Source: Streptomyces scopuliridis RB72
Lineage (GTDB): Bacteria > Actinomycetota > Actinomycetes > Streptomycetales > Streptomycetaceae
Assembly (NCBI RefSeq): GCF_000718095.1
Contig: NZ_JOEI01000006.1
Span: forward strand, 1 to 64,000
Length of the DNA: 64,000 nucleotides
Direction: 5' to 3'
Each line of letters opens with the position of its first letter. The first letter of the stretch is position 1. Below the pieces are notes generated by a model, which saw only the letters and a program-made list of their open reading frames with translations, did not search any database and had not been told where the DNA came from. Positions 30,434 to 45,088 of this stretch are shown here, one piece after another. A program made the translations under genes and the position numbers.

Positions 30434-31645
30434 TCACCAGCGCACCGGGAGCGTACGCAGTCCGCGCAGCAGGCTCGGGCGCCACTCGGGGGCGGCGGTC
30501 GCGTCGTCGAGGGCGAGGTCCGGGAAGCGGTCCAGCAGCGCGGGCAGCGCGACGGAGGCTTCGAGGCGGGCGAGCGGGGCGCCGAGGCAGTGGTGGATGC
30601 CGTGGCTGAAGGCGAGCTGAGCGCGGTTCACCGCGGGGTCACGGCGGATGTCGAAGCGCTCGGGGTCCGCGAAGCGCGCCGGATCGCGGTTGGCGGCGGC
30701 GAGGGAGAGCACGACGCGCTCGCCCCGCGGGATCGGCGTACCGGCCAGCGTCACGGGCTCGGCGGTGTAGCGGTACGCGGCGATCTGCGCCGACGGCTCG
30801 TACCGCAGCGTCTCCTCGATCGCGCCCTCCAGCAGCCCGGGATCGGCGCGCAGGGCGGCGAGTTGGTCCGGGTGGCGCAGCAGCAGATGGACGGCGCTGG
30901 AGAGGAGATTGACGGTCGTCTCGTGCCCGGCGACGAGCAGCAGGAACGCCATGCCGAGGAGTTCGTCGGGCGCGAGACGGTCGCCGTCGTCGCCGTCGGA
31001 GTCGTGCGTACGGACGAGGGCGTGCAGCAGGTCGGCGTCCTCTCCGGGGGCGAGGTGGCGCTTCTCCTCGATGAGCCCGGTGAGATATTCGGTCATCGCG
31101 GTCGCGCCGGCCATCGCGGCCTCCGCGTCGGTGACGGCGACGATCGCGCTCGACCAGCGGTGGAACGCTTCGCGGTCGGCGGCCGGGACGCCGAGGAGTT
31201 CACAGATGACGGTGATCGGCAGCGGAAAGGCGTACGCGTCGACGAGATCGGCGCCACCGGCCGGGGCCATGGCGTCGAGGAGTTCGGCGGAGATGCGCCG
31301 AATGCGCGGCTCCAGCTCCGCGATACGGCGAGCGGTGAACTGCCGTGAGACGAGCGCGCGGAGCCGGGTGTGATCGGGCGGGTCGACCTGGAGCATGTTG
31401 CGCCCGATCGCGTAACCGCCGTCGCTGTCGAACTCGGCGGAGTGCCGTATGTCGTTACGCAGCCGCGTGTCCCCGAGCGCGGCGCGGACGGCGTCGTACC
31501 CGAGGACCAGCCAGACCGCCTCGCCCGCGGGCATCCGTATACGGCGGACGGGGCCTTCGGCGCGGAGCGACTGATAGGCGGGATAGGGGTCGGCGAAGAA
31601 GTCGGGGGCGGCGGAGGTGAGTTCGGTGAGGTGGTCTGCGCGCAT
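30434..31645 (-). CDS. Cytochrome P450
   Basis: 403 aa, normal length for a bacterial class I P450. I-helix motif AGHETT, K-helix E-x-x-R in EETLRYEP, and heme-binding FSHGIHHCLGAP with the cysteine ligand. ATG at 31645 has AGGGAG upstream. No ferredoxin or reductase gene is adjacent, and no pathway gene clearly belongs with it. It could hydroxylate a secondary metabolite. Confidence 0.96.
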   Translation of the reverse strand: MRADHLTELTSAAPDFFADPYPAYQSLRAEGPVRRIRMPAGEAVWLVLGYDAVRAALGDTRLRNDIRHSAEFDSDGGYAIGRNMLQVDPPDHTRLRALVSRQFTARRIAELEPRIRRISAELLDAMAPAGGADLVDAYAFPLPITVICELLGVPAADREAFHRWSSAIVAVTDAEAAMAGATAMTEYLTGLIEEKRHLAPGEDADLLHALVRTHDSDGDDGDRLAPDELLGMAFLLLVAGHETTVNLLSSAVHLLLRHPDQLAALRADPGLLEGAIEETLRYEPSAQIAAYRYTAEPVTLAGTPIPRGERVVLSLAAANRDPARFADPERFDIRRDPAVNRAQLAFSHGIHHCLGAPLARLEASVALPALLDRFPDLALDDATAAPEWRPSLLRGLRTLPVRW

Positions 31646-31750
31646 GGTGGCTCCCTGGATAATCGGGGACAGCTCCCCGTTTCCTCTCGCGCCGAGCCTA
31701 CCAACAACCGGGGACAGAACCGGGGACACCTCCACGCTTCAGCCCGGGAG

Positions 31751-33340
31751 CTACTCCCACTCCACGGTGAGCGTCGCCCCCGCGCCCGACCTGAGGAAGA
31801 CGTACGCCGTGGCGGCGGGCGCCGAGGCGAGGCGGAGGCGGGTCTGTGTGATGCCGGTCGGGTTGACCGTCGTGAAGGCGGTGGACGACTTCGTTCCCGA
31901 GGTGAAGGCGCCGATCTCCGCCGCCCCCGTCGCCGAGGCCGGGGCCGACCAGTCGTCGGCGGCCGTCGCGCAGGTCGCGCCGAAGCAGCCGGTTCTGATG
32001 TCCAGGAGCAGCCGGTTGCCCGCCGCCCAGGGGTCACCGGCGCCGCTCGCGCGCGTCACCGTCACGAACGCCCGCGTCACGCGCGCGTCGTCCGGGACGG
32101 ACGAGGTGTCGAACGAGAACAGGGCCCGGTTGTGCAGCCCGTCCGTGCCCCGGCCGACGGCGACCCCGAGGCTTCCTTCGAGCGTGCCCACGGCCGGGCC
32201 GTCTCCGGTCGCGGACGCCTTCACGTAGCCGTCGTCCGCGGCCAGGCTCGGCAGTACGGCGCTCCCGGCGCCGGGCTCGGGCCCCGGACCGGGGGATCCG
32301 GCGCCGTCCAGGTGCCAGAACAGGCCGATCCGGTACGAGGCGCACAGCCCGACGTCGAGGATGTACGCGCCCGCCGTGCCGCACTGCTCAGGGCCGGTGC
32401 CCGGGTCGACCGGCTGGCCGTGTCCCATGCCGGTCAGCGAGTACGTCTCTACCACGTCCCGTCCGGCGCCGTCGCGGTACACAGCGTGTGGATAACCGGC
32501 CACGGTGTCGGTGGCGTCGGGCGTCGCGTCCGTACCGTGGACGGCGGTCCACTGCTCCACCGTCTCCGTCAGATTGGCCGGGACGACCGTCGTGTCCGTC
32601 GTCCCCTGCCAGACCGAGACCGTGGGCCAGGGTCCGCCGTAACCGGGGTACGCGGCACGGACCTTGTCGGCCCAGGCCGACGGCGACAGGTTCGTCCCCG
32701 GGTTCATGCAGGTGTACGCGGCGAGCACGCTGGTCGCGCACGCGTACGGCAGCCCGGCCACCGGTGCTCCGGCGGCGAAGACGTCCGGGTAGGCGGCGAG
32801 CACGACGTTGGTCATCGCGGCCCCCGCGGACAGCCCCGTCGCGTAGACCCGGGCGGGGTCGCTGCCCAGGTCGCTCTTCATCCGGTCGGTCATCTGCTTG
32901 ACCGACAGCGCCTCGCCCGCGCCGCGCGCGATGTCACCGGATTCGAACCAGTTGAAGCAGGAGTTGAGGTTGTTGCCGGACTGCTGCTGGGGCAGCAGCA
33001 GGGCGAAGCCCCACTGGTCCGCCCACTTCGTCCAGCCGGTCTCCGAGTCGTACGCCGCCGCCGACTGCGTGCAGCCGTGCATCGCCACCACGAGGGGCCG
33101 GCCTGCGGGCAGGCCGTCCGGGACGTAGCGGAACATCCGCAGATTGCCGGGGTTCGTACCGAAGCCGCTCACTTCGGTGAGCGTCGCGGCCCGCGCCTCG
33201 GGGACGAACCCGGGGCCGCCCGCGCCGAGCAGGGCGACCAGCAGCGCCAACAGCATCCCCGCCGTGGTGAGTCGTCGTGCCGTGCTTCGTTTCGCCGTAC
33301 CTCGTAGGGCGGTTCGCTTCGTCCAGGTGCTCTCCCGCAT
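31751..33340 (-). CDS. Secreted PHB depolymerase-family esterase with C-terminal beta-sandwich module
   Basis: 529 aa. Signal peptide (MLLALLVALLGAGG...ARA, cleavage about residue 51). Esterase domain: oxyanion MHGCTQSA (about 87), nucleophile GLSAG (S171), with Asp and His in GTTDTTVVP and GMGHGQP. From about residue 375 a C-terminal domain (DGYVKASATG to TLTVEWE) looks like a DNRLRE/carbohydrate-binding type sandwich. The family includes PHB depolymerases, feruloyl and acetylxylan esterases; the added module favours plant polysaccharide or polyester attachment. ATG at 33340 with AAGGAG. Confidence 0.9.
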   Translation of the reverse strand: MRESTWTKRTALRGTAKRSTARRLTTAGMLLALLVALLGAGGPGFVPEARAATLTEVSGFGTNPGNLRMFRYVPDGLPAGRPLVVAMHGCTQSAAAYDSETGWTKWADQWGFALLLPQQQSGNNLNSCFNWFESGDIARGAGEALSVKQMTDRMKSDLGSDPARVYATGLSAGAAMTNVVLAAYPDVFAAGAPVAGLPYACATSVLAAYTCMNPGTNLSPSAWADKVRAAYPGYGGPWPTVSVWQGTTDTTVVPANLTETVEQWTAVHGTDATPDATDTVAGYPHAVYRDGAGRDVVETYSLTGMGHGQPVDPGTGPEQCGTAGAYILDVGLCASYRIGLFWHLDGAGSPGPGPEPGAGSAVLPSLAADDGYVKASATGDGPAVGTLEGSLGVAVGRGTDGLHNRALFSFDTSSVPDDARVTRAFVTVTRASGAGDPWAAGNRLLLDIRTGCFGATCATAADDWSAPASATGAAEIGAFTSGTKSSTAFTTVNPTGITQTRLRLASAPAATAYVFLRSGAGATLTVEWE

Positions 33341-33437
33341 GGCGGCTCCTTCGCGGCGGTCCCTCGTGTCCGTCACCCTTGACGGGCTACGGACACTAGG
33401 GGCGCGCTCGGGCCGCGCAGCACGGCCCGGACCGCCA

Positions 33438-34958
33438 TCAATCCCGCGGAGACGTGGGCTCCGGCCACATGGACAACGCCTGAGCGGAATCCTCCGGGCC
33501 CGCCGCCCGCCCCGCCCCCAGCTCCGGCCGCTCCCGGATCCCGAATTCCCGGCGCAGCGCCGAAAGAGCCGCGAGATAGCCGGACATGCCATGGACACTG
33601 GGCCCCGGCGGTGTCGACGCCGAGCAGAGATAGACCCCTGGCAGCGGCGTCCGGTAGGGGTCGAGCCGCGGGGTGGGGCGCAGCAGCGACTGCTTGAGGG
33701 TCATCGCCCCGCCGCCGATGTCCCCGCCCACGTAATTCGGGTTGTACGCCTCGTACGCGGCGGCCGGGATCCCGCGCTGGGCGACGATGGTGTCGGTGAA
33801 CCCCGGCGCGTACTGCTCGATGCGCGCGCGCACCATCTCCAGCGGATCGGTGTCGTCGCCGTTCGGTACGTGCGCGTACGCCCACACCGGCCGCTTGCCG
33901 GGCCTGGCGCGCCCCGGGTCGGTGGCCGCGGGGTCGACCAGCAGGACGAAGGGCTCGGACGTGGCGACGCCCCTGGCCGTCAGGGTCTCCTGGCGGAACA
34001 TCTCCGCCTGGGTGCCCGCGAGGTGGACCGTACCGGCCTTGCCGACCTCCGGGTTGGCCCATGGGATCGGTTCCGACACCAGGAAGTCGGCCTTCGCCGC
34101 CCCCGGCCCGTACCGGAACGCGTCGAGCCGCCGCCGGTAGCGCGCGGGCAGCCGGTCACCGGCGATCGCGGTGAAGCCCTTGGGGCTGGTGTCCAGGAAC
34201 ACCGCCTTCACATCGCCGAGTTCGCGCAGATCGCCGATGGGGCGGCCGGTGTGGAACGTACCGCCGTGCGCGGTGATGTCGGCGGCCAGCGCGTCCGCGA
34301 TACGGGCGCTCCCGCCGCGCGGCAGCGGCCAGCCGGTGCCGTGGGCGAGATGGCCGAGCAGCAGGGCGACCCCGGCCGAGGCGAGGGTGGGCATTCTGCC
34401 GATGGAGTGCGCGGCGACGCCGGCGAGCAGGGACTTCGCCCGCTCACCGGCGAACCGCCCGGCGGCGAGCGGGGTCCCGTGCGCCAGCGCCCTGGTGGGC
34501 AGGAGCAGCGGGGCCGGCAGATCGCGCGGCAGCCCGCGCCCGCCGGAGAGGATCAGATCGACGATGCCCTCGCTGTGGTTCAGCAGCGGCGCCATGAGCC
34601 GGCGCCAGCGCCGTCCGTCGGGGCCGAGGTGCTCGCAGGTGGCGTCGAGGTCGCGGTAGGCGAGCCCGGCGTCGCCGCCGTCGAGGGGGTGCGCGTAGCT
34701 GATCTCGGGGTGGAGCAGTTCGACCCCGCGCGCACCGAGGTCGAACTCGCGGAAGAAGCGCGAGGCCGCGGCCATCGGATGCACGGCGGAGCAGATGTCG
34801 TGGACGACGTCGTCATCGAAGAGGGGTTCGGTGCGCAGCCCTCCGCCGATGGTGTCCCTGGCCTCGTAGAGCTCGACGGTGAGGCCGGCCCTGGCGAGCG
34901 TGACGGCGGCGGCCAGGCCGTTGGGCCCGGTCCCGACGACGACGGCGTCCGCTGTCAT
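33438..34958 (-). CDS. Phytoene desaturase-like FAD-dependent oxidoreductase
   Basis: 506 aa. FAD-binding motif VVVGTGPNGLAAAVTLARAG (residues 5-24), GGGLRTEPLFDDDVVHDICS, and the C-terminal PGVYLCSASTPPGPSVHGMSG typical of the CrtI-like NAD(P)/FAD oxidoreductases. ATG at 34958 has GGGAGGG six bases upstream. It lies 64 bp after the linaridin-cluster ABC transporter on the same strand, so it could be a tailoring enzyme of that cluster or an independent gene. Confidence 0.9.
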   Translation of the reverse strand: MTADAVVVGTGPNGLAAAVTLARAGLTVELYEARDTIGGGLRTEPLFDDDVVHDICSAVHPMAAASRFFREFDLGARGVELLHPEISYAHPLDGGDAGLAYRDLDATCEHLGPDGRRWRRLMAPLLNHSEGIVDLILSGGRGLPRDLPAPLLLPTRALAHGTPLAAGRFAGERAKSLLAGVAAHSIGRMPTLASAGVALLLGHLAHGTGWPLPRGGSARIADALAADITAHGGTFHTGRPIGDLRELGDVKAVFLDTSPKGFTAIAGDRLPARYRRRLDAFRYGPGAAKADFLVSEPIPWANPEVGKAGTVHLAGTQAEMFRQETLTARGVATSEPFVLLVDPAATDPGRARPGKRPVWAYAHVPNGDDTDPLEMVRARIEQYAPGFTDTIVAQRGIPAAAYEAYNPNYVGGDIGGGAMTLKQSLLRPTPRLDPYRTPLPGVYLCSASTPPGPSVHGMSGYLAALSALRREFGIRERPELGAGRAAGPEDSAQALSMWPEPTSPRD

Positions 34959-35022
34959 GCCACACCCTCCCGAAGTACCCGCGCACCCGACGCACCCCAT
35001 GCGCCCAGCACACCCGACATTG

Positions 35023-36726
35023 TCACGCCGCGACCTCCTGATGCCTGGAGAGCCGCTGATACAGGTCGTCCGTCGTGGTCAGTTCCGTATGCGTGCCGGT
35101 CGCCCGGACACCGCCCCGGTCCAGCACGATGATCTGGTCCGCCTGCGTGATGGTCGAGATCCGGTGGGCGATCGCGATCACCGCGCAGGTCCCGGAGATG
35201 GCGGTGATGGTGTCCCGCAGCGCGTCCTCCGCCTCGCTGTCCAGATTGGCGGTCGCCTCGTCCAGCAGCACGATGTGCGGCCGTTGCAGCAGCGTGCGCG
35301 CGATGGCCAGGCGCTGCTTCTGCCCGCCGGACAATCCCGCGCCGCGCTCGCCGAGTTCGGTCTCCAGTCCCTCGGGCAGGGCCCTGATCACCTCGCCCAG
35401 ATGGGCCATGCGCAGCGCGTCCGCGATGTCCTTCTCGCTCGCGTCGGGCGCGGCGTAGGTGAGGTTCTCGCGGATGGTGCCCCGCATCAGGCTGTGGTCC
35501 TGCTCGACATAGCCGATCTGGCCGCGTATCTGCTCCAGCGGCATGGTCGCCGTATCCGTCCCGCCCAGCAGGACGGTGCCGGAGTCGGGCCCGTAGAAGC
35601 GTTCGATGAGCTGGAAGACGGTGGTCTTGCCCGCTCCCGAGGGGCCGACGATCGCGGTGAGGCCCTTGTCGGGGACGGTGAAGGACACCGTGTCGAGGAC
35701 GGGCTCCTCGCTGCCGGGGTACGAGAACGAGACGCGGTCGAAGGCGATCGCGTGGCCCCGGGTGGCGACGGGAGCGGCGTCCGGGTCGAGTTCCTCCTGC
35801 TCGATGCCGGCCAGCTCGCCGATCCGGTCGAGGGCCGCGCGGCCCTGCTGGAACTGGGCGATCGACATGAACAGCATCACCAGCGGCGACACCAGATAGA
35901 AGAGGTACATCATGAACGAGGTCAGGTCCGCGGGCGGCATCGCGCCGGTCGCCACCCGGGCCATCCCCCACGCGATGACGACCGTCAGGGCGACCTGCGT
36001 ACCGACGTTCATCGCGGGCGTGAGCATCGCGGACAGCGCCGAGACCCGGACCCCGGAGCGGCGCGCCTTCCGCGCGAAGCCGGTGATGCGCTCTGTCTCG
36101 CGGTCCTCGGCACGCGACGCCTTGACGGTGCTCATCGCGCCGAGCACCCGCATCAGCGCGGAGCCGAAGTCGCTGGTGTGCTCGCGGTTGATGACCGCCA
36201 CCTTCCGCACCCGGCGGGCCAGCAGCAGCGACACGACGCTGGCGAGCCCCAGGCACAGCAGGGTCACGGCGAGGAGCAGCGGATCGATCCACGCCATCAG
36301 CGCGATTCCGCCGATGACCATGAATCCGCTGGTGACGATCTGCGCGAGGGCCTGCGCCATGCAGATACGCGCGAGCGAGGTGTCGGTGACCATACGGGTG
36401 AAGACGTCGCCCTGTTCCCAGCGCGCGAACGCGGCGGTACGGGAGCGCAGCAGCCGCGCGGTCAGCACATGGCGGATGTCGAAGACGATGTTCTCACCGG
36501 CCCGGCCGATCGCGTAGGCGTGGGCGGCGGCGAGCGCCGCGTCCGTCACGAACAGCGCCGCCGCGAGCAGGATCGGTACGAACAGTGAGCGGTCACCGGC
36601 GACGGCCTTGATCATCTCGCCGATGGCCAGCGGCTGCGCCAGCGTGGCCGCGGATCCCAGGATTCCCAGGATTGTGCCGGCCAGCAGGAGCACGCGGTGC
36701 CCGCGGGCTATCGACCAGACGTTCAC
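35023..36726 (-). CDS. ABC transporter, fused membrane and ATPase domains (linaridin export, LinT-like)
   Basis: 567 aa. Six-helix ABC_membrane domain in the first about 320 residues, then the ATPase domain: Walker A GPSGAGKTT (about 362), signature LSGGQKQR (about 467), Walker B IVLLDEA. No N-terminal C39 peptidase domain, so it does not cut the leader. GTG at 36726 overlaps the methyltransferase stop (GTGA). Position in the chain of overlapping genes after the methyltransferase suggests it exports the mature peptide. Confidence 0.92.
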   Translation of the reverse strand: MNVWSIARGHRVLLLAGTILGILGSAATLAQPLAIGEMIKAVAGDRSLFVPILLAAALFVTDAALAAAHAYAIGRAGENIVFDIRHVLTARLLRSRTAAFARWEQGDVFTRMVTDTSLARICMAQALAQIVTSGFMVIGGIALMAWIDPLLLAVTLLCLGLASVVSLLLARRVRKVAVINREHTSDFGSALMRVLGAMSTVKASRAEDRETERITGFARKARRSGVRVSALSAMLTPAMNVGTQVALTVVIAWGMARVATGAMPPADLTSFMMYLFYLVSPLVMLFMSIAQFQQGRAALDRIGELAGIEQEELDPDAAPVATRGHAIAFDRVSFSYPGSEEPVLDTVSFTVPDKGLTAIVGPSGAGKTTVFQLIERFYGPDSGTVLLGGTDTATMPLEQIRGQIGYVEQDHSLMRGTIRENLTYAAPDASEKDIADALRMAHLGEVIRALPEGLETELGERGAGLSGGQKQRLAIARTLLQRPHIVLLDEATANLDSEAEDALRDTITAISGTCAVIAIAHRISTITQADQIIVLDRGGVRATGTHTELTTTDDLYQRLSRHQEVAA

Positions 36727-37484
36727 GCCGCGGCCTTGGTGTAGACCGAGACGAACATCGGCGACTGCTCGCTGTAGGGCGACTCGTCCCAGCCCGCGAA
36801 CCGCTGCTCGGGCTCCAGTCCGGCGTCGCGCGCGTACGCGTCGACCTCGTCCGGGGTGGTGAGGCGGGACGCCTCGGAGCCGACGCGGGTGGTCCCGTCC
36901 GACTCGTACCAGATGTGGGAGCAGAGCCAGATGGAGCCCTCGGGCAGCAGGGTGGAGTGGGTCTGGAGTCCGGTGCCCGGTTCCGGATATGGCGTGAAAT
37001 AGGTGTCGCGGCTGCGGCCTTCGTGGAGCGCGAGGATGGCGGGCTTGTTGTGTGTCTCGATGACGAGCCGGCCGCCGGGCCGCAGCAGGTCCGCCGCACG
37101 CCGCATGGCCAGCTGCTGGTCCTCGGGGGTGAGCAGCATGGAGAGCGTTCCGCAGACGCAGTACACGAGACCGTACCGCTCCTCGGAGGTGTACGTACGG
37201 ATGTCGCCGTGGACCGGCTCGACCTCGGCGGCGCCGGGCTCGGCGCGCAGCGTGGCCAGCATCTCCTCGGAGGAGTCCACCCCGGTCACCCGGCCGACAT
37301 GCCCGGACAGCGGTACGGCGATACGGCCGGTGCCGACGCCGAACTCCAGGGTGCCGGCGGAGTGATCGGGGTGGAGGTCGGCGATCTTCTTGGCGACCCC
37401 GGCCGCCGCTCCGTCCTTCGGGAACAGCCGGTCGTACCAACCGTCGAACTGGCGGCCGTAACCTATGTCGGCTATCGCGTTCAC
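36723..37484 (-). CDS. SAM-dependent methyltransferase (CypM/LinM-like)
   Basis: 253 aa. Class I fold with motif I TLEFGVGTGRIAVPL (about 44-58), then GVDSSEEML and a post-motif LLRPGGRLVIE. In cypemycin, the CypM enzyme of similar size dimethylates the N-terminal alanine; both precursor cores here would start with Ala, which fits. GTG at 37484 overlaps the stop of the preceding 55-aa peptide gene (GTGA), and its own stop overlaps the transporter start. The CypM-like role is inferred from context. Confidence 0.88.
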   Translation of the reverse strand: MNAIADIGYGRQFDGWYDRLFPKDGAAAGVAKKIADLHPDHSAGTLEFGVGTGRIAVPLSGHVGRVTGVDSSEEMLATLRAEPGAAEVEPVHGDIRTYTSEERYGLVYCVCGTLSMLLTPEDQQLAMRRAADLLRPGGRLVIETHNKPAILALHEGRSRDTYFTPYPEPGTGLQTHSTLLPEGSIWLCSHIWYESDGTTRVGSEASRLTTPDEVDAYARDAGLEPEQRFAGWDESPYSEQSPMFVSVYTKAAA

Positions 37485-37648
37485 TGGTGACTCCTCTTCC
37501 TGTTCCTGTGCAGTTCCAGGCCGGCGGCGAGGACGAGAGCCGTGCCGATCCCGGCGGCGAACGGATAGTTGATGACATCGCCGATCGCCAGGAACACCAG
37601 CACGGCGATGGCGGCGAGGGCGCAGAGAATGACCGGGGTCTTGTTCAT
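37481..37648 (-). CDS. 55-aa two-helix membrane peptide of the linaridin cluster
   Basis: Begins MNKTPVILCALAAIAVLVFL, has two hydrophobic helices (about 5-22 and 28-45) and a basic tail HRNRKRSHQ. AGGAG about 6 nt before the ATG at 37648; the ribosome-binding region itself is duplicated (GAGGAGTCCCT twice). The stop overlaps the methyltransferase start by 4 nt. Tiny membrane proteins accompany linaridin enzymes in other clusters; this one may be a membrane-complex or immunity subunit. Confidence 0.75.
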   Translation of the reverse strand: MNKTPVILCALAAIAVLVFLAIGDVINYPFAAGIGTALVLAAGLELHRNRKRSHQ

Positions 37649-37729
37649 CAGGGACTCCTCAGGGACTCCTCGGGTACCGCTGGTGCCGCCCCTCGTGGGG
37701 GAAGGGGCGGCAGTCGATGGCGACCAGGC

Positions 37730-37747
37730 CCTGTCCGGCCGGACAGG
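37730..37747. repeat. 18-nt perfect palindrome CCTGTCCGG/CCGGACAGG
   Basis: Perfect palindrome between the two tiny genes of the linaridin cluster, extendable by three more pairs on each side after one mismatch (AGG...CCT). Nearly the same sequence is at 24650-24670. On the minus strand it comes just after the 26-aa gene stop and could attenuate transcription into the next genes. Confidence 0.8.
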
Positions 37748-37749
37748 AC

Positions 37750-37830
37750 CTACCTCTTCAGAACGCCGATCGCGATGGCCGCGGCGATCGCGGCACCGAT
37801 CGCGAGAATGACGTACGCACCAACACTCAT
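37750..37830 (-). CDS. 26-aa hydrophobic peptide of the linaridin cluster
   Basis: Sequence runs MSVGAYVILAIGAAIAAAIA then IGVLKR: a single hydrophobic helix with a basic end. ATG at 37830 overlaps the stop of the upstream membrane-associated gene (ATGA), so translation would be coupled. Very short; the overlap is the main support. May be a membrane stabiliser or a non-coding coincidence. Confidence 0.45.
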   Translation of the reverse strand: MSVGAYVILAIGAAIAAAIAIGVLKR

Positions 37831-38435
37831 GCCTTGACCGCTTTCTTGACGTCTGATTTCACTGGCGTGTCCGTGTGGGGGTCCAACGGGGTGTACGGCG
37901 ACACGAACACGACCTCGGGGTCGTGACCGTCGTCGTACCCGGTGGCACGGGCCAGCGCGAACTGGAATCCCGTGATCCGCCGGGCGTCCTCCTGCTCCTG
38001 GATCGTGGCCCGCAGATACTCGGTGAGCGTCCGGTAGGCGGAGGTCCGCACGATGACGGGGAACCCCTTGTCGATCACATGGAGGATCTCACTGCAGATG
38101 TCGAAGATCGCCTTTTCCGGCCGCCGCGTGGGGAACCAGACGATCTGCCGCATCTTGCGTCCGGCGATGACGTCGACGCCCTTCCAGGCGGAGGTCTCCC
38201 CGTCCGTGCCGCGGGTGCGGTAGAGGAAGTGGTAGTCGTGCATGGCGGGAGTCGGCGCGAAGAACCGCCAGTTGGGCAGCAGCGAGAAGGTGTCCTTCAG
38301 CTGGAGCCGGTTGAACAGCTGGTTCGGGTGCTGGGTCGCGATCGTGCTGACCAGCATCACGGCCCCGGCGATGCGCCAGCCGGAGCCGGGGCCGGTGAAC
38401 AGGTTCTTGCCGATCTCCCGCGGTGATGTGCTCAC
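37827..38435 (-). CDS. Membrane-associated protein of the linaridin cluster (LinL-like candidate)
   Basis: 202 aa. One hydrophobic segment (about residues 18-36, WRIAGAVMLVSTIA), then QLFNRLQLKDTFSLLPNWRF FAPTP, a pattern seen in small partners of HTTM (vitamin K carboxylase-like) membrane proteins. GTG at 38435 overlaps the stop of the LinH-like gene. In cypemycin-type clusters two proteins without known chemistry, CypH and CypL, are both present and implicated in dehydration; this gene stands in the right place to be the second. The assignment is by position and size, not by recognised homology. Confidence 0.7.
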   Translation of the reverse strand: MSTSPREIGKNLFTGPGSGWRIAGAVMLVSTIATQHPNQLFNRLQLKDTFSLLPNWRFFAPTPAMHDYHFLYRTRGTDGETSAWKGVDVIAGRKMRQIVWFPTRRPEKAIFDICSEILHVIDKGFPVIVRTSAYRTLTEYLRATIQEQEDARRITGFQFALARATGYDDGHDPEVVFVSPYTPLDPHTDTPVKSDVKKAVKA

Positions 38436-40309
38436 TTGGCCGCCCCCTCGTGCTCGTCCGTGGTCGCGTCGGTCCGCAGTCCGGCGTCGCAGAACGCGAC
38501 GATGCGCTCGGTCACCTGGTGCGCGAAGCGGCTCTGCGTCAGGACCGTGTCGTGGTCGGCGCCCTCGATCACCACGACCTCCGTCCGCCGGCCGTCGCCG
38601 CGGTGCGCCTCGGCCAGCTCGTTGTGCATCAGCAGCTGGTCGGGGTCCCGGTCGACGGTCTGCTGCGCGGAGACCACGAGCGCGTGGGTGTCCAGCGGCT
38701 CCAGCTCGCCCGCGAAGGCGCGGAAGTCCGCCTCCACCGCCGCCCATTCGCGGCGCCCGGCGTTCCACATCCGTACGTCCGTGTACTGCGCGAACGCCTT
38801 CTTGCGGTACGCCTCGGGCAGCGCGTCCACCCAGATGGGACGGGACATCAGGATGCCGGTGCCGGCGCGCAGGAACCACACCATCTGGGTGAGGGACTCG
38901 CTCAGCCGCTTGGCGGTGTCGCTCTGCTGCTTGGAGCGGTTCAGCTCGTCGGGGTGGGAGGAGTCGAGATAGACGACGCCGTGCACCCGGTCCCCGAGCT
39001 GGAGCGCGGCGCGGCGGGCGAGTTCACCGCCGAGCGAGTGTCCGACGAGTATGACCCGGCGCTTCGGCGAGACGGTCCCCACGAGGTCGACCAGGTCGTC
39101 GACGGACTCGGCGAGGGTGTAGGCCGCGCCGGACTCGCGGCGGCTGCCGGCGTATCCGGCGCGGGCGTACGTGACGACGCCGTAGCCGGTCTCCTTGGCC
39201 AGTTTCTCCGTCACCCAGGAGAAGTGCTCGGAGGTGGCGACCATCCCGGCGGCGAACACCATCACCGGCTTGTCGGCGTCTCCCTGCGACATGACCTCGT
39301 ACTGGAGCTCGTTGCCGTTGCGGGTGGTCAGGATCCGGGTGGTGTGCCAGCCCTCCAGCGTACGGAGACGACGCTGTACGGCGACCACACCGGCCACCGC
39401 GGCGGCGCCGGCCAGCAGGCTCGCGGCCGTCAGCGGTGCGCGGTTGTCCCGGCCCGCGACGGCGGGGTGGCCCCGGTGGGTCGCGGTGTACGCCACCATC
39501 GGGTGCATGGCCACGAAGGAGGACACGAACCGTCCCAGGCCCATGAGGAACCCGTTGGTGACATGGAAGGCGGCGGCGCTGGTGATCACCGGGCGGGCCA
39601 GCCGGCCGCCGGCGAGATAGACGAGGGGGAAGAGGCACTCCAGCGCGAGCACGCTGTGGGTGAGATAGCGCGAGAGCCGCGGATTGTCCTGGGTCCACCG
39701 GAACATCGGCTCGTGGCCGTAGGTCCTGGTCCGCATGATCCCGCCGAGCGCGGAGGCGTCCCGCCAGGGCTCGCCGAGCAGCTTCACCCAGCCGGACACC
39801 GCGTACGACAGGCTGGACTGGAGCGCGACGTACCAGATCAGGGCGTCCTTGGCCTCCGGCGACCTCACCAGCCGGGCGGCGCCGGTGGCGGTCTGCACGA
39901 GGATGGCCACCTGGTCGGACCCGTCGGTGCCGTAGCGGTGGCGCGGGTAGAGCAGCGCGGAGGTCGTGCCGAGGAAGAGACTTCCGGCGCCGCGCCAGCG
40001 CGAGGAGCCGGGAAGCAGCATGCCCGCGCTGACGGCGGCGCGGGCGACATGGAGGGCGGTCGTCGTCCGGCGTCCGCTGACGGCGTGCAGCGCCTTCCGT
40101 ACGAGGGGCGTCGAGGCGGCCTGGACATCCTTGACGATGTCCCAGTCGTTGAGGCCACCCTTGCGCAATTCCTTGCGCTGGGAGAGATATTCGATCGACG
40201 AGGTCAGCGTGGTGACCGCGGCCAGCCGTTCCGACACGCCCACCGCCCCGTCCCGGGACACCGGCACAGGACCGAAGACTGCCGAAGCGATCCTTCGTGC
40301 GAATCTCAC
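38432..40309 (-). CDS. Membrane/alpha-beta hydrolase fusion (LinH/CypH-like)
   Basis: 625 aa. The N-terminal half (about 1-330) is a multi-helix HTTM-like membrane domain (LLGEPWRDASALGGIMRTRT, LALECLFPLVYLAGGR); the C-terminal half is an alpha/beta hydrolase with nucleophile elbow GHSLGG (about residue 422) and late His in GADHDT. A membrane part joined to an alpha/beta hydrolase is the hallmark reported for CypH of the cypemycin cluster; in other linaridin clusters the parts are split. GTG at 40309 has AAAGGA five bases upstream. Overlaps the next gene by 4 nt. Likely part of the peptide dehydration/epimerisation complex at the membrane. Confidence 0.82.
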   Translation of the reverse strand: MRFARRIASAVFGPVPVSRDGAVGVSERLAAVTTLTSSIEYLSQRKELRKGGLNDWDIVKDVQAASTPLVRKALHAVSGRRTTTALHVARAAVSAGMLLPGSSRWRGAGSLFLGTTSALLYPRHRYGTDGSDQVAILVQTATGAARLVRSPEAKDALIWYVALQSSLSYAVSGWVKLLGEPWRDASALGGIMRTRTYGHEPMFRWTQDNPRLSRYLTHSVLALECLFPLVYLAGGRLARPVITSAAAFHVTNGFLMGLGRFVSSFVAMHPMVAYTATHRGHPAVAGRDNRAPLTAASLLAGAAAVAGVVAVQRRLRTLEGWHTTRILTTRNGNELQYEVMSQGDADKPVMVFAAGMVATSEHFSWVTEKLAKETGYGVVTYARAGYAGSRRESGAAYTLAESVDDLVDLVGTVSPKRRVILVGHSLGGELARRAALQLGDRVHGVVYLDSSHPDELNRSKQQSDTAKRLSESLTQMVWFLRAGTGILMSRPIWVDALPEAYRKKAFAQYTDVRMWNAGRREWAAVEADFRAFAGELEPLDTHALVVSAQQTVDRDPDQLLMHNELAEAHRGDGRRTEVVVIEGADHDTVLTQSRFAHQVTERIVAFCDAGLRTDATTDEHEGAAK

Positions 40310-40361
40310 AGGGTTCCTTTCAAAACCGCCCTGGGGGACGGCTCCCGTAGAGTGGATAGGG

Positions 40362-40398
40362 TTCTGCCGGGCCAGAACGCATCTCTGGCCCGGCAGAA
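40362..40398 (-). terminator. 15-bp hairpin between precursor and modification genes (attenuator)
   Basis: TTCTGCCGGGCCAGA (40362-40376) and TCTGGCCCGGCAGAA (40384-40398) pair perfectly around a 7-nt loop, 24 nt after the second precursor stop and before the LinH-like start. There is no U-run on the minus-strand transcript, so partial read-through is expected. This would give much more precursor than enzyme mRNA. Confidence 0.8.
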
Positions 40399-40421
40399 TT
40401 GCATTCAGATGCTGCCTGCGA

Positions 40422-40607
40422 CTAGAGCTGCGTGGCCGGGGCCGAACCGCCGCCGCGACCGAGCTCGAAGGCGCCGATGACGGCGGAAGAGACCGCCACG
40501 CCGCCCAGGAACGCACCCGGGGTGGCCAGCACCGGGGTGGCGTCGGGGAATACCTTTCCCTCCGCCGGAATGTCCATCTCGTTCACTGCCTCGATGATGT
40601 TGTTCAT
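40422..40607 (-). CDS. Linaridin-type precursor peptide 2
   Basis: 61 aa. ATG at 40607 with GGAGG at about 7 nt. Leader MNNIIEAVNEMDIPAEGKVF; junction motif DATPVLATP; predicted core from A28 (34 residues: ATPGAFLGGVAVSSAVIGAF, then ELGRGGGSAPATQL). P-V-L-A-T-P matches the PxxxTP junction described for linaridin precursors, and cypemycin's core also begins ATP. The core has two Thr, three Ser, no Cys, so no AviCys ring can form. The leader contains an extra ATP copy four residues upstream. Confidence 0.8.
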   Translation of the reverse strand: MNNIIEAVNEMDIPAEGKVFPDATPVLATPGAFLGGVAVSSAVIGAFELGRGGGSAPATQL

Positions 40608-40708
40608 GCTTTTCCTCCTACCAACAGTTCGATTTGGTGAATGACAATGAGCGTTTCCGCGCAGGTGGTGTGAAACCACCGACGGGGATGTCCAGCCGAC
40701 AGCGATGT

Positions 40709-40912
40709 TTAGCCGACGGCCTTGCCGAGGGCGTACGCGCCACCGACGAGGGTCGCGCCACCGACGAACGCGCCGACGACCTTGGCGCCACCGATGGCGG
40801 CGAGGGCGGCGGCCGGGGTCGCCAGAACCGGGCTCTGCTCCGAGTTGGACTCGCCCTGGTCGATGGCGCCGAGGTCCAGCTTCTCGTTGAAGTACGAGAC
40901 GATCTCCACCAT
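40709..40912 (-). CDS. Linaridin-type precursor peptide 1
   Basis: 67 aa. ATG at 40912 with GGAG six bases upstream. Leader MVEIVSYFNEKLDLGAIDQG ESNSEQ, then SPVLATP, and a predicted core from A31 (37 residues: ATPAAALAAIGGAKVVGAFV, then GGATLVGGAYALGKAVG). The core is made almost only of Ala, Gly, Val, Leu with two Thr and no Cys or Ser. It shares with precursor 2 the PVLATP junction but little else, so the pair may give two different products. First gene of the minus-strand cluster. Confidence 0.82.
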   Translation of the reverse strand: MVEIVSYFNEKLDLGAIDQGESNSEQSPVLATPAAALAAIGGAKVVGAFVGGATLVGGAYALGKAVG

Positions 40913-41126
40913 GAGATGCTCCGCTTTCTGCTATGTGTTGGATGCACGCGTTACACGCGCTGGATGCACGTGCGAGATGCACGCACCGAAATCCAGCCAT
41001 GAATAAGACCGATAACGGTCATTTGGTGGCCCTCAGTGCGTTATACGCGGGTAAACCTCCGCGACTGAAGCGGCGATCCCCCTGCCGTGCGGTTGGATGA
41101 AAGCACCCGCGCCAACAAGGCCAGTA

Positions 41127-41226
41127 TGACGTAGGTCACAGTGATATTCGGAATGGGATCGTCCGTCTACTGACATGTGTCACAAGGCGATATGACGTCC
41201 GTCATCAGAGGCCATGACAGTTCTCA
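41127..41226. promoter_or_regulatory. Phased operator array TGAC-N4-GTCA in divergent promoter region
   Basis: Perfect inverted repeats TGAC-N4-GTCA occur at 41127-41138, 41171-41182 and 41193-41204, and a near-copy TGAC-N4-CTCA at 41215-41226. Centres are 44, 22 and 22 bp apart, two or four helical turns, so the sites face the same side of DNA. They lie 62-161 bp before the exporter ATPase start and 215-315 bp before the first precursor. Likely sites for the cluster's NarL-type response regulator. Confidence 0.75.
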
Positions 41227-41287
41227 TCGAGATGGACGTCATTCATCGGCGACGATTTCGCCCATGGATGCCAATGGAGCAGAAAAT

Positions 41288-42220
41288 GTGATCGAGGTCA
41301 CAGACCTTTGGCGGCGATACGGGCCCGATGACAAGCGGGGCTTCGCCGCCGTTCGGGGCGTCACCTTCTCTGTCCCGCAGGGCGAAATATTCGCTCTGCT
41401 CGGGACAAATGGCGCAGGAAAGACCTCTACGGTCGAACTCCTCGAAGGGCTCGCCCGCCCCACCGGTGGCAGCATTCGCCTTTTCGGCGCGCACGACCCC
41501 TTTACCGACCGGAAGCACACCCGGCCGCGGACAGGCGTCATGCTCCAGCACGGCGGTTTCGCCACCGACCTCACGGTCGACGAGACGGTCCGCATGTGGG
41601 CATCCGTGACCACCGACCCGCGCCCCGTCGCGGAGGCCACCGAGATGGTGGGGCTCGGACACCGCGGCGACGTCACCGTCAAGAGCCTGTCGGGCGGCGA
41701 GAAGAGGCGTCTCGACCTCGCCATGGCCACGCTCGGCCGGCCCGATCTCCTCTTCCTGGACGAGCCGACGACCGGAATGGACCCCGAGGGCCGCCACGAC
41801 ACCTGGCGGATCATCGAGCGGCTCAACGACGACGGCGCCACCATCGTCCTGACCACGCATTACCTGGAAGAGGCCGAGGGGCTCGCCGACCATCTGGCCA
41901 TCATGCACCAGGGCGAGATCGCGGCATCCGGAACGGTGCCCGAGATCGTCGCCGCCCACCCCTCCACGCTCGGCTTCCGCCTCCCGCCGGGCCTCGGCAC
42001 CGACGATCTGCCCTCGGCGGGCGACCTGCGGGCCACCGTCACCGCCGGCAAGGACGGCCTGATGGAGCTGTCCACCGACGACCTCCAGCACACCACGACC
42101 GAAGTCCTGTTCTGGGCCCGCCACAAGGGCATCGACCTGAAGGAACTCGACGCCAGCTCCGCCTCCTTGGAGGAGGCGTTCCTGCGCGTCGCCCGGACCG
42201 CCACGAGGGGCACCGAATGA
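41288..42220 (+). CDS. ABC-2 type transporter ATP-binding protein
   Basis: 310 aa. Walker A LGTNGAGKTS, signature LSGGEKRR, Walker B LLFLDEPTTGMDPEG, and a C-terminal domain as in DrrA/CcmA-like drug-export ATPases. GTG at 41288 has GGAG eight bases upstream; ATG at 41264 is an alternative with a weak site. Couples by ATGA overlap to the permease. Probably gives self-protection from, or second export of, the peptide made by the divergent cluster. Confidence 0.93.
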   Translation: MIEVTDLWRRYGPDDKRGFAAVRGVTFSVPQGEIFALLGTNGAGKTSTVELLEGLARPTGGSIRLFGAHDPFTDRKHTRPRTGVMLQHGGFATDLTVDETVRMWASVTTDPRPVAEATEMVGLGHRGDVTVKSLSGGEKRRLDLAMATLGRPDLLFLDEPTTGMDPEGRHDTWRIIERLNDDGATIVLTTHYLEEAEGLADHLAIMHQGEIAASGTVPEIVAAHPSTLGFRLPPGLGTDDLPSAGDLRATVTAGKDGLMELSTDDLQHTTTEVLFWARHKGIDLKELDASSASLEEAFLRVARTATRGTE

Positions 42221-42984
42221 GTACCGCCGTCGCACACCTCACCGCGCTCAGCCGGGTCGAGCTGAGCCTCTTCGCCCGGAGCAAGACCAACCTGTTCAAC
42301 GTGCTGGTCATCCCCGTACTGATCACCATGGGCACGACCACCTTCATGGACCAGTACGACCTGGCGGGCGCGGGCCTCGCCATGGGCCAGGTGATGATCT
42401 CCACCTCCGCCGGCATCGTCCTGGTGATGGCCCTGTACGCGCCCCTGACCGGCGTCTACGTACTGCGCCGCGAGGATCATCTCCTCAAGCGGCTGCGCAC
42501 CGGCGAGGTCAACGACACCGTCATCCTGGCCAGTCCGGCCGTTCCCATGGTCGTCGTGGCCGTCCTCCAGTTCGCCCTGATCGCCGCGGCCGTCACGGTC
42601 ATCGCCGGTCTCGGCGCGCCCGCCGCCCCGCATCTGGCGCTCCTCGGCATCCTGCTCGGCGCCCTCCTGACCACCGCCGTGGCCGCGCTCACCACCGCCG
42701 TGGCGCGCACCGCGGAGAGCGCGCAGGGAGTCAGCACGATGGGCTTCCTCTTCCTCCTGCTGACCTCAGGCACCCTTATCCCCATGGGTGTTCTGCCGGA
42801 CATCTTCGGAGACGTCCTCGGATACTTCCCGCTCACCCCCGCAATCAGCCTGGTCCAGTCAGGCTGGACCGGAGAGGATGCGGGCCTGGGCTCCACACTG
42901 ATCAGGGTCGCGACGATCGTCGCCTGGACCGCCCTGGCGACCTGGGGCGTACGGCGCTGGTTCCGGTGGGAGCCCAGAGACTGA
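42217..42984 (+). CDS. ABC-2 type transporter permease
   Basis: 255 aa with six hydrophobic helices in the ABC-2 pattern (LFNVLVIPVLITMGTT; LVMALYAPLTGVYVLRRE; LFLLLTSGTLIPMGVLP). ATG overlaps the ATPase stop. Partner of the preceding ATPase; followed after 30 bp by the kinase gene, so transporter and regulator pair form one operon. Confidence 0.92.
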   Translation: MSTAVAHLTALSRVELSLFARSKTNLFNVLVIPVLITMGTTTFMDQYDLAGAGLAMGQVMISTSAGIVLVMALYAPLTGVYVLRREDHLLKRLRTGEVNDTVILASPAVPMVVVAVLQFALIAAAVTVIAGLGAPAAPHLALLGILLGALLTTAVAALTTAVARTAESAQGVSTMGFLFLLLTSGTLIPMGVLPDIFGDVLGYFPLTPAISLVQSGWTGEDAGLGSTLIRVATIVAWTALATWGVRRWFRWEPRD

Positions 42985-43014
42985 CCGCATGACCAACGGG
43001 GAAGAGGAAGCGAA

Positions 43015-44199
43015 ATGGGGACCTCGCTGCACCAGACCAACGTGCACAAGGCCACGGTCTACACACGTTGGATGCTCTGTTCCATGCCCTGGCTCCTGCT
43101 CGCTTCCCTCCTCTGGCCATTACTGGCCCAACTACAGCGTGGCGGCGCGCCGACCTCGGCCGTGAGCCTGGCGGCCGCGCTCACCACCGTCCAGGGGATC
43201 GGCGCGACCACGGCCGTGGCCTACGGCATCGGACGGCAGGTCCTCCCGGTACCGCTGCTGCTCGGGATCGGGGCGCTCACCGCGCTCCAACTCGCGCTGA
43301 TGCCCTACCTGTACGACGCGGAGTGGCTGACCGGTACGCAGTCGATCGCCACGTTGTCGGTCGTCCTGGCGCTGCCGCTCGCCTTCGCCCTGTCGCCCAC
43401 GGCCAATCTGCGCCTCTACGCGAGCGCCGCGCTCGCCGAGACCGCCGCCGCCGCGACCGTGAGCCTCTATCTCGACCCGCGGATGACCCTGCCCGTCCTG
43501 ACCGTCACCGCGACGGGATGGGCGGTCATCGGCCTTCTCATGCACTCCTCCGTCTGGTTCCTGGCCGTCATGTGGCAGCTGGACGCGGCCCGGGAATCGC
43601 AGGCCCGGCTGGTCGTGGCCGAGGAACGGCTCCGGTTCGCCCGCGATCTCCACGATGTGATCGGGCGGAACCTGTCCGTCATCGCGCTCAAGGGCGAACT
43701 GGCCGCCCGGCTCACCCAGCACCCCAAGGCGCAGGCGGAGATGGTCGAAGTGCAGCGCCTCGCGCGCGAACTGCACAAGGAGATCAGGGACGTCGTACGG
43801 AACTACCGCACCACCGACCTGGAGGCCGAACTCGACGGCGCCCGCGCGGTTCTGGAAGCGGCCGGCACGACCTGCGTCATCCATCACGCCCCGCCGGCGG
43901 GCGGCTTCGGCGAGAAGACCCAGATCGCGCTGGGATGGGCCGTGCGGGAAGCCGTCACCAACGTACTGCGGCACGCCCACTCCACCCACTGCACCATCAC
44001 CGTGGACCGCCGCAACGGAGGGGAAACCCAGCTCCAGGTGACCAACGACGGTGCCACGCCCGGCAGCGGTCCCGGCCAGGGGACCGGTCTGGACGGGCTG
44101 ACGCAGCGGCTCGCGCCCCTCGGCGGCGAGCTCTGCCACGGCTACGGGCCGAAGAACACCTATCGCCTCACTGTGCGCATACCGAACGGGGAATCGTAA
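43015..44199 (+). CDS. Two-component sensor histidine kinase (DesK/NarL type)
   Basis: 394 aa. Five or six N-terminal transmembrane helices without a large external domain, suggesting that the signal is in or near the membrane. HisKA_3 helix RFARDLHDVIGRNLSVIALK, HATPase with REAVTNVLRHAHS and GQGTGLDGLTQRL. ATG with GAGGAAG upstream. Stop overlaps the regulator start (TAATG). A membrane-sensing kinase next to an exporter is the usual design for peptide-antibiotic immunity. Confidence 0.93.
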   Translation: MGTSLHQTNVHKATVYTRWMLCSMPWLLLASLLWPLLAQLQRGGAPTSAVSLAAALTTVQGIGATTAVAYGIGRQVLPVPLLLGIGALTALQLALMPYLYDAEWLTGTQSIATLSVVLALPLAFALSPTANLRLYASAALAETAAAATVSLYLDPRMTLPVLTVTATGWAVIGLLMHSSVWFLAVMWQLDAARESQARLVVAEERLRFARDLHDVIGRNLSVIALKGELAARLTQHPKAQAEMVEVQRLARELHKEIRDVVRNYRTTDLEAELDGARAVLEAAGTTCVIHHAPPAGGFGEKTQIALGWAVREAVTNVLRHAHSTHCTITVDRRNGGETQLQVTNDGATPGSGPGQGTGLDGLTQRLAPLGGELCHGYGPKNTYRLTVRIPNGES

Positions 44200-44804
44200 T
44201 GATCCGGGTCCTCCTCGCCGATGACGAACACCTCATACGCGGCGCGCTGGCCGCGCTGCTGACCTTCGAGCGCGACCTGGAGGTCGTCGCCGAAGCCTCG
44301 ACCGGCCCCGAGGCCGTGGCCATGGCCCGCCACCACAAACCCGATGTCGCCGTCCTCGACCTCCAGATGCCCGGCAAGGACGGCATCACCGTCGCGGAGG
44401 ATCTCAACCGCAGCCTGCCCGGCTGTCAGACGCTGATCGTCACCAGCCACGGTCTGCCCGGCCATCTCAAGCGCGCGCTGGCCTCCGGGGTCCAGGGCTT
44501 CGTCTCCAAGACCGTGTCCGCGCAGGAACTCGCCTCGATCATCCGCAGCGTCCACGGCGGCAGCCGCTATATCGACTCCACCCTGGCCGCGGACGCCATC
44601 AGCGCCGGTGACTCGCCCCTGACCTCGCGGGAGGCCGATCTGCTCACGCTGGCCGCCGACGGGGCGCCGATCGAGGACATAGCGGAACGGGCGGCGCTGG
44701 CGCAGGGGACCGTACGCAACTACCTGTCGGCGGTGACCACCAAGCTGGGGGTGGAGAACCGGCACGCGGCGGCGTATCTGGCGCAGCGGCGGGGCTGGAT
44801 CTGA
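44199..44804 (+). CDS. NarL-family response regulator
   Basis: 201 aa. Receiver with acidic DDE, phospho-acceptor in AVLDLQMPGKDG and conserved Lys in FVSKTVS; C-terminal LuxR-type HTH (LTSREADLLTLAADGAPIED, IAERAALAQGTVRNYLSAVT). ATG overlaps the kinase stop. DesR-like. Probable binder of the TGAC-N4-GTCA array. Confidence 0.94.
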   Translation: MIRVLLADDEHLIRGALAALLTFERDLEVVAEASTGPEAVAMARHHKPDVAVLDLQMPGKDGITVAEDLNRSLPGCQTLIVTSHGLPGHLKRALASGVQGFVSKTVSAQELASIIRSVHGGSRYIDSTLAADAISAGDSPLTSREADLLTLAADGAPIEDIAERAALAQGTVRNYLSAVTTKLGVENRHAAAYLAQRRGWI

Positions 44805-44925
44805 GGGAACTCGATACGGGCCGTACTGGTACGGGCCCGTAATCACAGGCTCACCCGCCTCCGTACGTCGGTTCCGGCGGGCGTACGGGGGCGGTCGTAG
44901 GTACGGGGGCGGTCGTACGTACGGG

Positions 44926-45000
44926 GCTCGTACGTACGGGGCTCGCGCGTGCGGGGCTCGCGCGTGCGGGGCTCGCGCGTGCGGGGCTCGCGCGTGCGGG
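44926..45000. repeat. 15-bp tandem repeat, five units
   Basis: Four identical GCTCGCGCGTGCGGG units (44941-45000) preceded by a variant GCTCGTACGTACGGG. It fills the 284-bp spacer between the response regulator and the convergent GPP34 gene together with GTACGGGGGCGGTCG repeats (about 44883-44920). The spacer also has an 8-bp GTACGGGCC/GGCCCGTA-type hairpin near 44814-44842, a likely terminator. Confidence 0.9.
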
Positions 45001-45088
45001 GGCGGTCGCGCGCCGTTCGGGCACACGACCGCTGGGGAGTACCGGACGGGGGACCGCCTCGCGCCGGGGCGCCTCGCGCCGAGGCGCC

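Follow-up and report, generated by a model that had tools for sequence, protein, structure and literature searches.

What does a linaridin enzyme pair do when the peptides it would act on hold little to dehydrate? The question is raised by positions 33438-44804 of a 64,000-nucleotide stretch of Streptomyces scopuliridis RB72 (assembly GCF_000718095.1, contig NZ_JOEI01000006.1, positions 1 to 64,000; hereafter the window), where two short precursor genes precede a membrane-hydrolase fusion protein (H) and a membrane-associated protein (L). We consider it reasonably probable that this is a linaridin-type ribosomally synthesized and post-translationally modified peptide (RiPP) cluster for two hydrophobic, Ala/Gly/Val-rich peptides, in which H and L would mainly invert C-alpha centres. 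The analysis shows which genes are present, their homologies, the retention of two paired precursors and the make-up of the cores; from these we infer every chemical step, the cut site, the joint action of the peptides, immunity and regulation. The few Thr residues in the cores hint that the linaridin toolkit has another main job here.

A linaridin-type cluster with two precursors

The minus-strand genes are, in reading order:

40709..40912, minus strand: precursor 1, 67 amino acids (aa), predicted mature peptide ATPAAALAAIGGAKVVGAFVGGATLVGGAYALGKAVG (open reading frame, ORF; 11 close relatives)
40422..40607, minus strand: precursor 2, 61 aa, predicted mature peptide ATPGAFLGGVAVSSAVIGAFELGRGGGSAPATQL (ORF; similar partner in loci L160, L047 and L173)
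38432..40309, minus strand: H, HTTM-type membrane domain plus alpha/beta hydrolase, with triad Ser425-Asp449-His586 and Lys176 (Pfam, alignments, profile comparison)
37827..38435, minus strand: L, LinL-type membrane-associated protein, distant DUF5819 relative (Pfam, alignment, profile comparison)
37750..37830, minus strand: tiny1, single-helix membrane peptide, 26 aa (ORF; counterpart in L160)
37481..37648, minus strand: tiny2, small membrane peptide, 55 aa (ORF; counterpart in L160)
36723..37484, minus strand: S-adenosylmethionine methyltransferase (Pfam, NCBIfam, comparison with related loci)
35023..36726, minus strand: ATP-binding cassette (ABC) exporter, membrane and ATPase domains (Pfam)
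33438..34958, minus strand: flavin adenine dinucleotide (FAD) oxidoreductase, carotenoid-desaturase-like group (Pfam, NCBIfam; start by eye)

All genes named in a preliminary description of this DNA were found on the minus strand within 33438-44804, including the two short genes that share a PVLATP junction. Its text left out the FAD oxidoreductase (33438 to ~34958), although the region it described spans that gene, whose start we moved by eye from 35000 to ~34958, where there is a good ribosome site. The genes had been called nearly all overlapping; this holds for the enzyme genes, with 4-bp overlaps at H/L, L/tiny1, tiny2/methyltransferase and methyltransferase/ABC exporter, and fails for precursor 2, H and tiny2, which start 101-112 bp past the preceding gene. 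Lanthipeptide, lasso, thiopeptide and YcaO pathways could be ruled out, as had been claimed, since such domains were absent from the ten proteins scanned with Pfam.

The linaridin assignment had been staked on similarity of H to CypH/LinH proteins. It withstands that test because H matches H of L157 (29% identity, E 8e-33), a locus whose precursor we take to be CypA, with which it appears to agree letter for letter. H also matched a Pfam alpha/beta hydrolase (E 3.6e-18) and, by profile comparison, the HTTM family, as a LinH protein would, and L resembled L of L157 (27% identity, E 5e-13), as a LinL protein would. Pfam matched nothing in either precursor, and both carry the linaridin hexapeptide PxxxTP in the form PVLATP. 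Precursors of this type neighbour H/L in 43 of 64 related loci, window included; together with the H/L homology this supports a linaridin-type cluster with two precursors.

The cluster had further been called cypemycin-like. It does share with type A linaridins (cypemycin, L157) the fused H, an L protein, the PxxxTP junction and a core starting with Ala-Thr-Pro (ATP). It lacks the type A hallmarks of a C-terminal Cys and a LinD decarboxylase for aminovinylcysteine: neither core contains Cys, the C-termini are VG and QL, and no decarboxylase was found among the ten scanned proteins. The cypemycin-type loci (L068, whose precursor we took to be CypA-like, L085, L157 and L161) have more Thr per residue and hold, at E 1e-8, nothing that matches the window methyltransferase or the FAD enzyme, and nothing at 200 bits that matches the exporter. 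The best match of the methyltransferase in L157 reached 23.5% identity (E 3e-8), whereas it was 69% identical to the methyltransferases of the split type-B-like loci L083 and L070. For methyltransferase, exporter and FAD enzyme together, identity to these two loci was 55-73%.

Like the type B linaridins legonaridin and corynaridin, the window cluster has no C-terminal Cys, and it has an oxidoreductase and no decarboxylase among the proteins scanned, but its HTTM and hydrolase parts are fused. In L083 and L070, whose cores are rich in Thr, the two parts are split into separate genes, and the available passages on corynaridin describe separate HTTM and hydrolase genes (crdG and crdE), seven Thr and an oxidoreductase called a short-chain dehydrogenase/reductase (PMC9927463). 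The window differs by its fused protein, its two precursors, its Thr-poor cores and its FAD-type oxidoreductase.

The FAD enzyme, perhaps the LinC of the literature, as we take it, was matched in 31 of the 39 loci of the window's clade (defined below), in 5/9 loci of the cypemycin/type-B group and in none of the four cypemycin-type loci. The methyltransferase (Pfam, E 2.7e-15) is predicted to dimethylate the N-terminus of the cores. The Pfam scan listed no peptidase domain in the ABC exporter. The cluster probably makes and exports two small hydrophobic modified peptides.

Thr-poor cores in a multi-peptide clade

The predicted products are hydrophobic peptides of ~37 and ~34 residues, rich in Ala, Gly and Val. 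We placed the cut between PVL and ATP, presuming that processing follows cypemycin; with that presumed cut ahead of ATP, neither core is free of Thr, since the junction Thr stays in both. Core 1 has two Thr, and core 2 two Thr and three Ser. Calculated monoisotopic masses are 3196.797 for unmodified core 1, 3224.828 once dimethylated, and 3206.818 or 3188.807 after the further loss of one or two waters; for core 2 they are 3085.620 and 3113.651, less 18.011 for each of up to five waters. Since the predicted cores hold few dehydratable residues, the products are only possibly linaridins in the chemical sense of linear peptides with Thr dehydrated to dehydrobutyrine.

Relatives were sought by H, by L and by precursor. 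H matched at E 1e-10 in 43/295 genomes of the same genus and L at 1e-8 in 58/392; an even draw across the phylum gave 6/396 matching genomes, and 5 of the 61 nearest relatives matched at 1e-20. Each of these four counts includes the window's own genome. A single-sequence contig scan matched two contigs, both from Streptomyces sp. L-9-10. The 64 stretches fetched around H/L matches (19 + 13 + 12 + 20) were searched with a leader model, built partly from the same loci, which discarded matches with E >0.05 and those lying over 6 kb away from H/L. Sixty-five precursors resulted, spread over 43 of the 64 loci that have an L match, a total that counts the window and omits L092, which has no such match.

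In a midpoint-rooted tree of L proteins, with groups assigned by eye, the window fell in a clade of 39 loci (itself included), which we compared with a cypemycin/type-B group of nine loci and nine precursors. The clade yielded 54 precursors from 32/39 loci, and 17 of these 32, counted by hand, encode two or three. Its cores, with the ATP triplet excluded, consist of 31.4% Ala, 15.8% Gly, 16.5% Val, 5.3% Thr and 2.0% Ser. Thr made up 14.1% in the comparison group, and Thr plus Ser per residue was 0.079 vs. 0.178 (Mann-Whitney p 7e-5, uncorrected for relatedness). The enzymes of the same loci contain 6.5% Thr and 5.7% Ser, placing clade core Thr at background and Ser below it.

Among 11 close relatives of precursor 1 mean identity was 94% in the core vs. 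72% in the leader; as the core is better kept than the leader, selection seems to act on the exact hydrophobic sequence. L160, L047 and L173 have retained a similar precursor pair. Five close relatives of the cluster (L040, L042, L043, L044 and L156) encode Ala/Asn-rich cores of 61-70 residues after PTLGTP, e.g., AAEANNLAAEANAQNAAALAAV, with 0-2 Thr besides the junction Thr; these cores resemble no linaridin core known to us. When proteins were searched with the precursor alignment, scoring being limited to the 7992 candidates that shared the most words, 78 relatives were listed, all with PxxxTP (partly built in, the motif being part of the query profile) and with mostly Ala/Gly/Val cores. Among the names listed for these 78, one is a GNAT prediction and one Bacteriocin, while the others read hypothetical or uncharacterized protein or are blank. 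The clade thus hints at products of two or three peptides that the searched databases, among the names listed, do not call RiPPs.

The Streptomyces relative L160 carries the same cluster in the same order, with 53-76% identity over eight compared proteins: H 75%, L 74%, methyltransferase 74%, ABC exporter 71%, FAD enzyme 73% and, on the plus strand, DrrB 76%, kinase 53% and regulator 75%. DrrA is in place, and both precursors and both tiny peptides are retained. This collinearity supports cluster boundaries near 33438-44804, the comparison having covered genes inside them. The Streptomyces locus L057, on an intermediate branch, has three precursors, another order of methyltransferase and exporter, and an H ~45% identical.

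A count of 561 linaridin clusters is cited in the accessible part of one report (PMC9927463). The open-access passages gave no description of a Thr-poor, multi-peptide linaridin branch, and an earlier one in the mining literature is possible. We regard the branch as a variant within the linaridins and not as a new class.

What H and L would do to the cores

To our knowledge, how LinH and LinL dehydrate and epimerise without a known cofactor is unexplained. We propose that H and L, bound to the leader, work as a pair within the membrane on the C-alpha atoms of the core, where they would dehydrate at most the few Thr and Ser and mainly invert the C-alpha centres of the hydrophobic residues (epimerisation). 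The leader would be cut within PVL/ATP, the methyltransferase would dimethylate Ala1, and the ABC exporter would secrete the two peptides, whose target is probably the membrane, attacked by both together. In chemical terms a C-alpha carbanion would give epimerisation at Ala/Val and beta-elimination at Thr/Ser, with epimerisation dominant in the window clade; a single carbanion chemistry would explain why one protein pair is tied to both dehydration and D-residues in linaridins. The window clade may separate the two reactions by substrate, with little to dehydrate and the enzymes retained. Multiple D-residues are described for type A linaridins in the accessible part of a review, where grmL is indispensable and potentially encodes an epimerase (PMC10373908).

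Several observations weigh against this reading. Both cores do contain Thr, so ordinary dehydration is possible; other clade cores carry 0 to 5 Thr besides the junction Thr; the leader model found no precursor in 7 of the 39 clade loci (L041, L045, L052, L055, L086, L169 and L170); and corynaridin is reported, in the passages available, to be dehydrated at all Thr/Ser (PMC9927463). The cluster might accordingly be an ordinary type-B-like linaridin cluster, with H and L dehydrating whatever Thr and Ser are available and Thr-poor cores arising by drift with the chemistry unchanged. We hold this to be possible but doubtful. The full dehydration of corynaridin speaks for it, as do a core Thr that only one of the 11 close relatives of precursor 1 lacks and a junction Thr invariant in 32 aligned precursors (picked by that motif, so partly built in); the Thr and Ser contents given above, compared with the enzymes of the loci and with the cypemycin/type-B group, argue against it, as do the cores of L042-L044, which have at most one Thr besides the junction Thr in 66-70 residues. 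It seems improbable that H and L serve maturation instead, the hydrolase removing the leader after or near TP and HTTM/LinL forming a processing or export module. SdpA and SdpB, regarded as such a module for the SDP peptide, would be the model. The hydrolase triad is kept in 33/34 aligned H proteins (cypemycin-type L068 included; the exception, L069, is represented only by the frame holding the HTTM part), no other peptidase occurs among the ten scanned proteins, and the SdpB family is matched, though under its cut-off, by the two other HTTM proteins found in the window genome (E 1e-16 and 7e-13). However, the profiles of LinL and SdpA showed no significant similarity (probability 0.3%), and CypH and CypL are reportedly needed for core modification.

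Two further explanations dispense with a typical linaridin pathway. Essentially unmodified two-peptide bacteriocins (class IIb-like, with N-methylation only) would fit the small-residue-rich cores in similar pairs of the window, L160, L047 and L173, but we think this very improbable, given the FAD enzyme in most clade loci and the presence of H and L in 39/39 (built in, as loci were found by H or L). Daptides, hydrophobic multi-peptide hemolysins with an aminated C-terminus, likewise come as several precursors per cluster, according to the accessible passages of PMC10036551. In NCBIfam the window methyltransferase, which has a related fold, scores highest against the daptide methyltransferase (68.7 bits, cut-off 175). 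Yet neither aminotransferase, alcohol dehydrogenase nor oxidative decarboxylase was found among the ten scanned proteins, and at the C-termini of the cores stand VG and QL rather than Thr, so that a daptide-like cluster is barely credible.

Returning to a mainly epimerising H/L pair, its chemistry might be sought in the HTTM domain. The N-terminal half of H had no Pfam match of its own, but four of eight H relatives match HTTM in Pfam (best E 8.7e-4), and the H-type HTTM profile matched other HTTM proteins (the two of the window genome and those of Streptomyces loci) with 96.4% probability (E 1.1e-9). A joint alignment of 24 H-type and four HTTM sequences had 16 positions conserved in both groups, including D129, G130, D132, Y169, G173, K176, W182, F227, P228 and H249. 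K176 was invariant in the 24 H-type rows and in 34 aligned H proteins. The motifs DG.D, G..K.....W, FP and H are shared by H, HTTM+DUF5819 pairs, the SdpB family and vitamin K-dependent carboxylase, with no carboxylation implied for H.

The pairing with L has a parallel as well. The match of L to DUF5819 in Pfam was weak (0.0014, below cut-off), and profile comparison gave 89% (E 2.4e-6); 16 aligned L proteins share 11 invariant columns, and a structural model of L has a mean pLDDT (predicted local distance difference test) of 76.7. Each of the two further HTTM proteins of the window genome adjoins a DUF5819 protein (loci L127 and L128), and an HTTM gene lies alongside on the same strand in 20/20 other Streptomyces DUF5819 loci (L136-L155; best 20 of 52 matches). 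HTTM+DUF5819 pairs, with a small partner protein alongside as L stands beside H, are distantly related to the H/L pair. A shared W.FF...P motif had suggested LinL as an SdpA homologue; the profile comparison cited above led us to reject this.

A more specific version of the proposal is that LinH-HTTM belongs to the vitamin K-carboxylase superfamily and keeps its catalytic lysine (Lys176 corresponding to GGCX Lys218), and that with LinL a quinone-derived superbase takes the C-alpha proton of the core, giving epimerisation at Ala/Val/Leu and beta-elimination at Thr/Ser, the window clade being a mostly-epimerase branch and the HTTM+DUF5819 pair a cellular cousin. We consider it rather unlikely as a whole, and a quinone as cofactor of H or L is guesswork prompted by the lysine and by family membership. 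In the carboxylase, according to the passages available, Lys218 starts the reaction and the vitamin K superbase takes a hydrogen from Glu to leave a carbanion (PMC9146348). The link from Lys176 goes through another HTTM protein: one of those in the window genome matched eight Protein Data Bank (PDB) sequences at insignificant E (0.66-9.1), each of them a vitamin K-dependent gamma-carboxylase, and the lysine of this HTTM protein aligns in such an insignificant match with residue 218, counted by hand from the stated start 200. The H-type HTTM profile reached no carboxylase among PDB sequences, direct PDB matches of LinH-HTTM and LinL were chance matches only, and carboxylase His160, read by eye, falls on the DGGD motif with no histidine partner in the HTTM alignment. 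The clade combines cores that offer little to dehydrate with a strictly conserved lysine of H that lines up with a known superbase-forming residue, and so makes the mechanistic question testable.

Flanking genes and non-coding elements

The remaining features lie between precursor 2 and H or on the divergent, plus-strand side:

40362..40398, minus strand: 16-bp hairpin between precursor 2 and H (folding vs. shuffles)
41127..41204, no strand: three TGAC-N4-GTCA palindromes, at 41127, 41171 and 41193 (pattern scan)
41264..42220, plus strand: DrrA-type ABC ATPase, alternative GTG start at 41177 (Pfam, NCBIfam)
42217..42984, plus strand: DrrB-type ABC-2 permease (homology)
43015..44199, plus strand: HisKA_3 sensor kinase (Pfam)
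44199..44804, plus strand: NarL/LuxR-type response regulator (homology)

The DrrA/DrrB pump would be a probable means of self-protection of the producer, perhaps together with the tiny peptides, which are possibly immunity peptides. DrrA and DrrB were each matched in 11/39 clade loci, the kinase in 6/39 and the regulator in 12/39. The kinase and regulator would control the divergent promoter region, where the three palindromes sit between the two units. The window contains four TGAC-N4-GTCA sequences vs. 0.92 expected, a number reached by 1/100 shuffles, and L160 has two (11205-11238) upstream of DrrA with the same 22-bp spacing. L039 has two further copies and L049 has one upstream of the precursor, and L045 has one upstream of H; the pattern also occurs within genes of many loci. 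We regard the palindromes as a candidate operator of the cluster's response regulator.

The hairpin has one G-U pair, a 5-nt loop and no clear T run, and its z score was -2.9, with 1/200 shuffles of the 111-nt stretch folding equally well. It is likely a transcript attenuator or stabiliser and would probably set the ratio of precursor to enzyme transcript.

A cytochrome P450 and an esterase of the polyhydroxybutyrate (PHB)-depolymerase type adjoin the cluster at 30434-33598 on the minus strand. Past the regulator gene, a degenerate short tandem repeat with GGCTCGCGCGTGCGG-like units, seen by eye, occupies 44910-45010.

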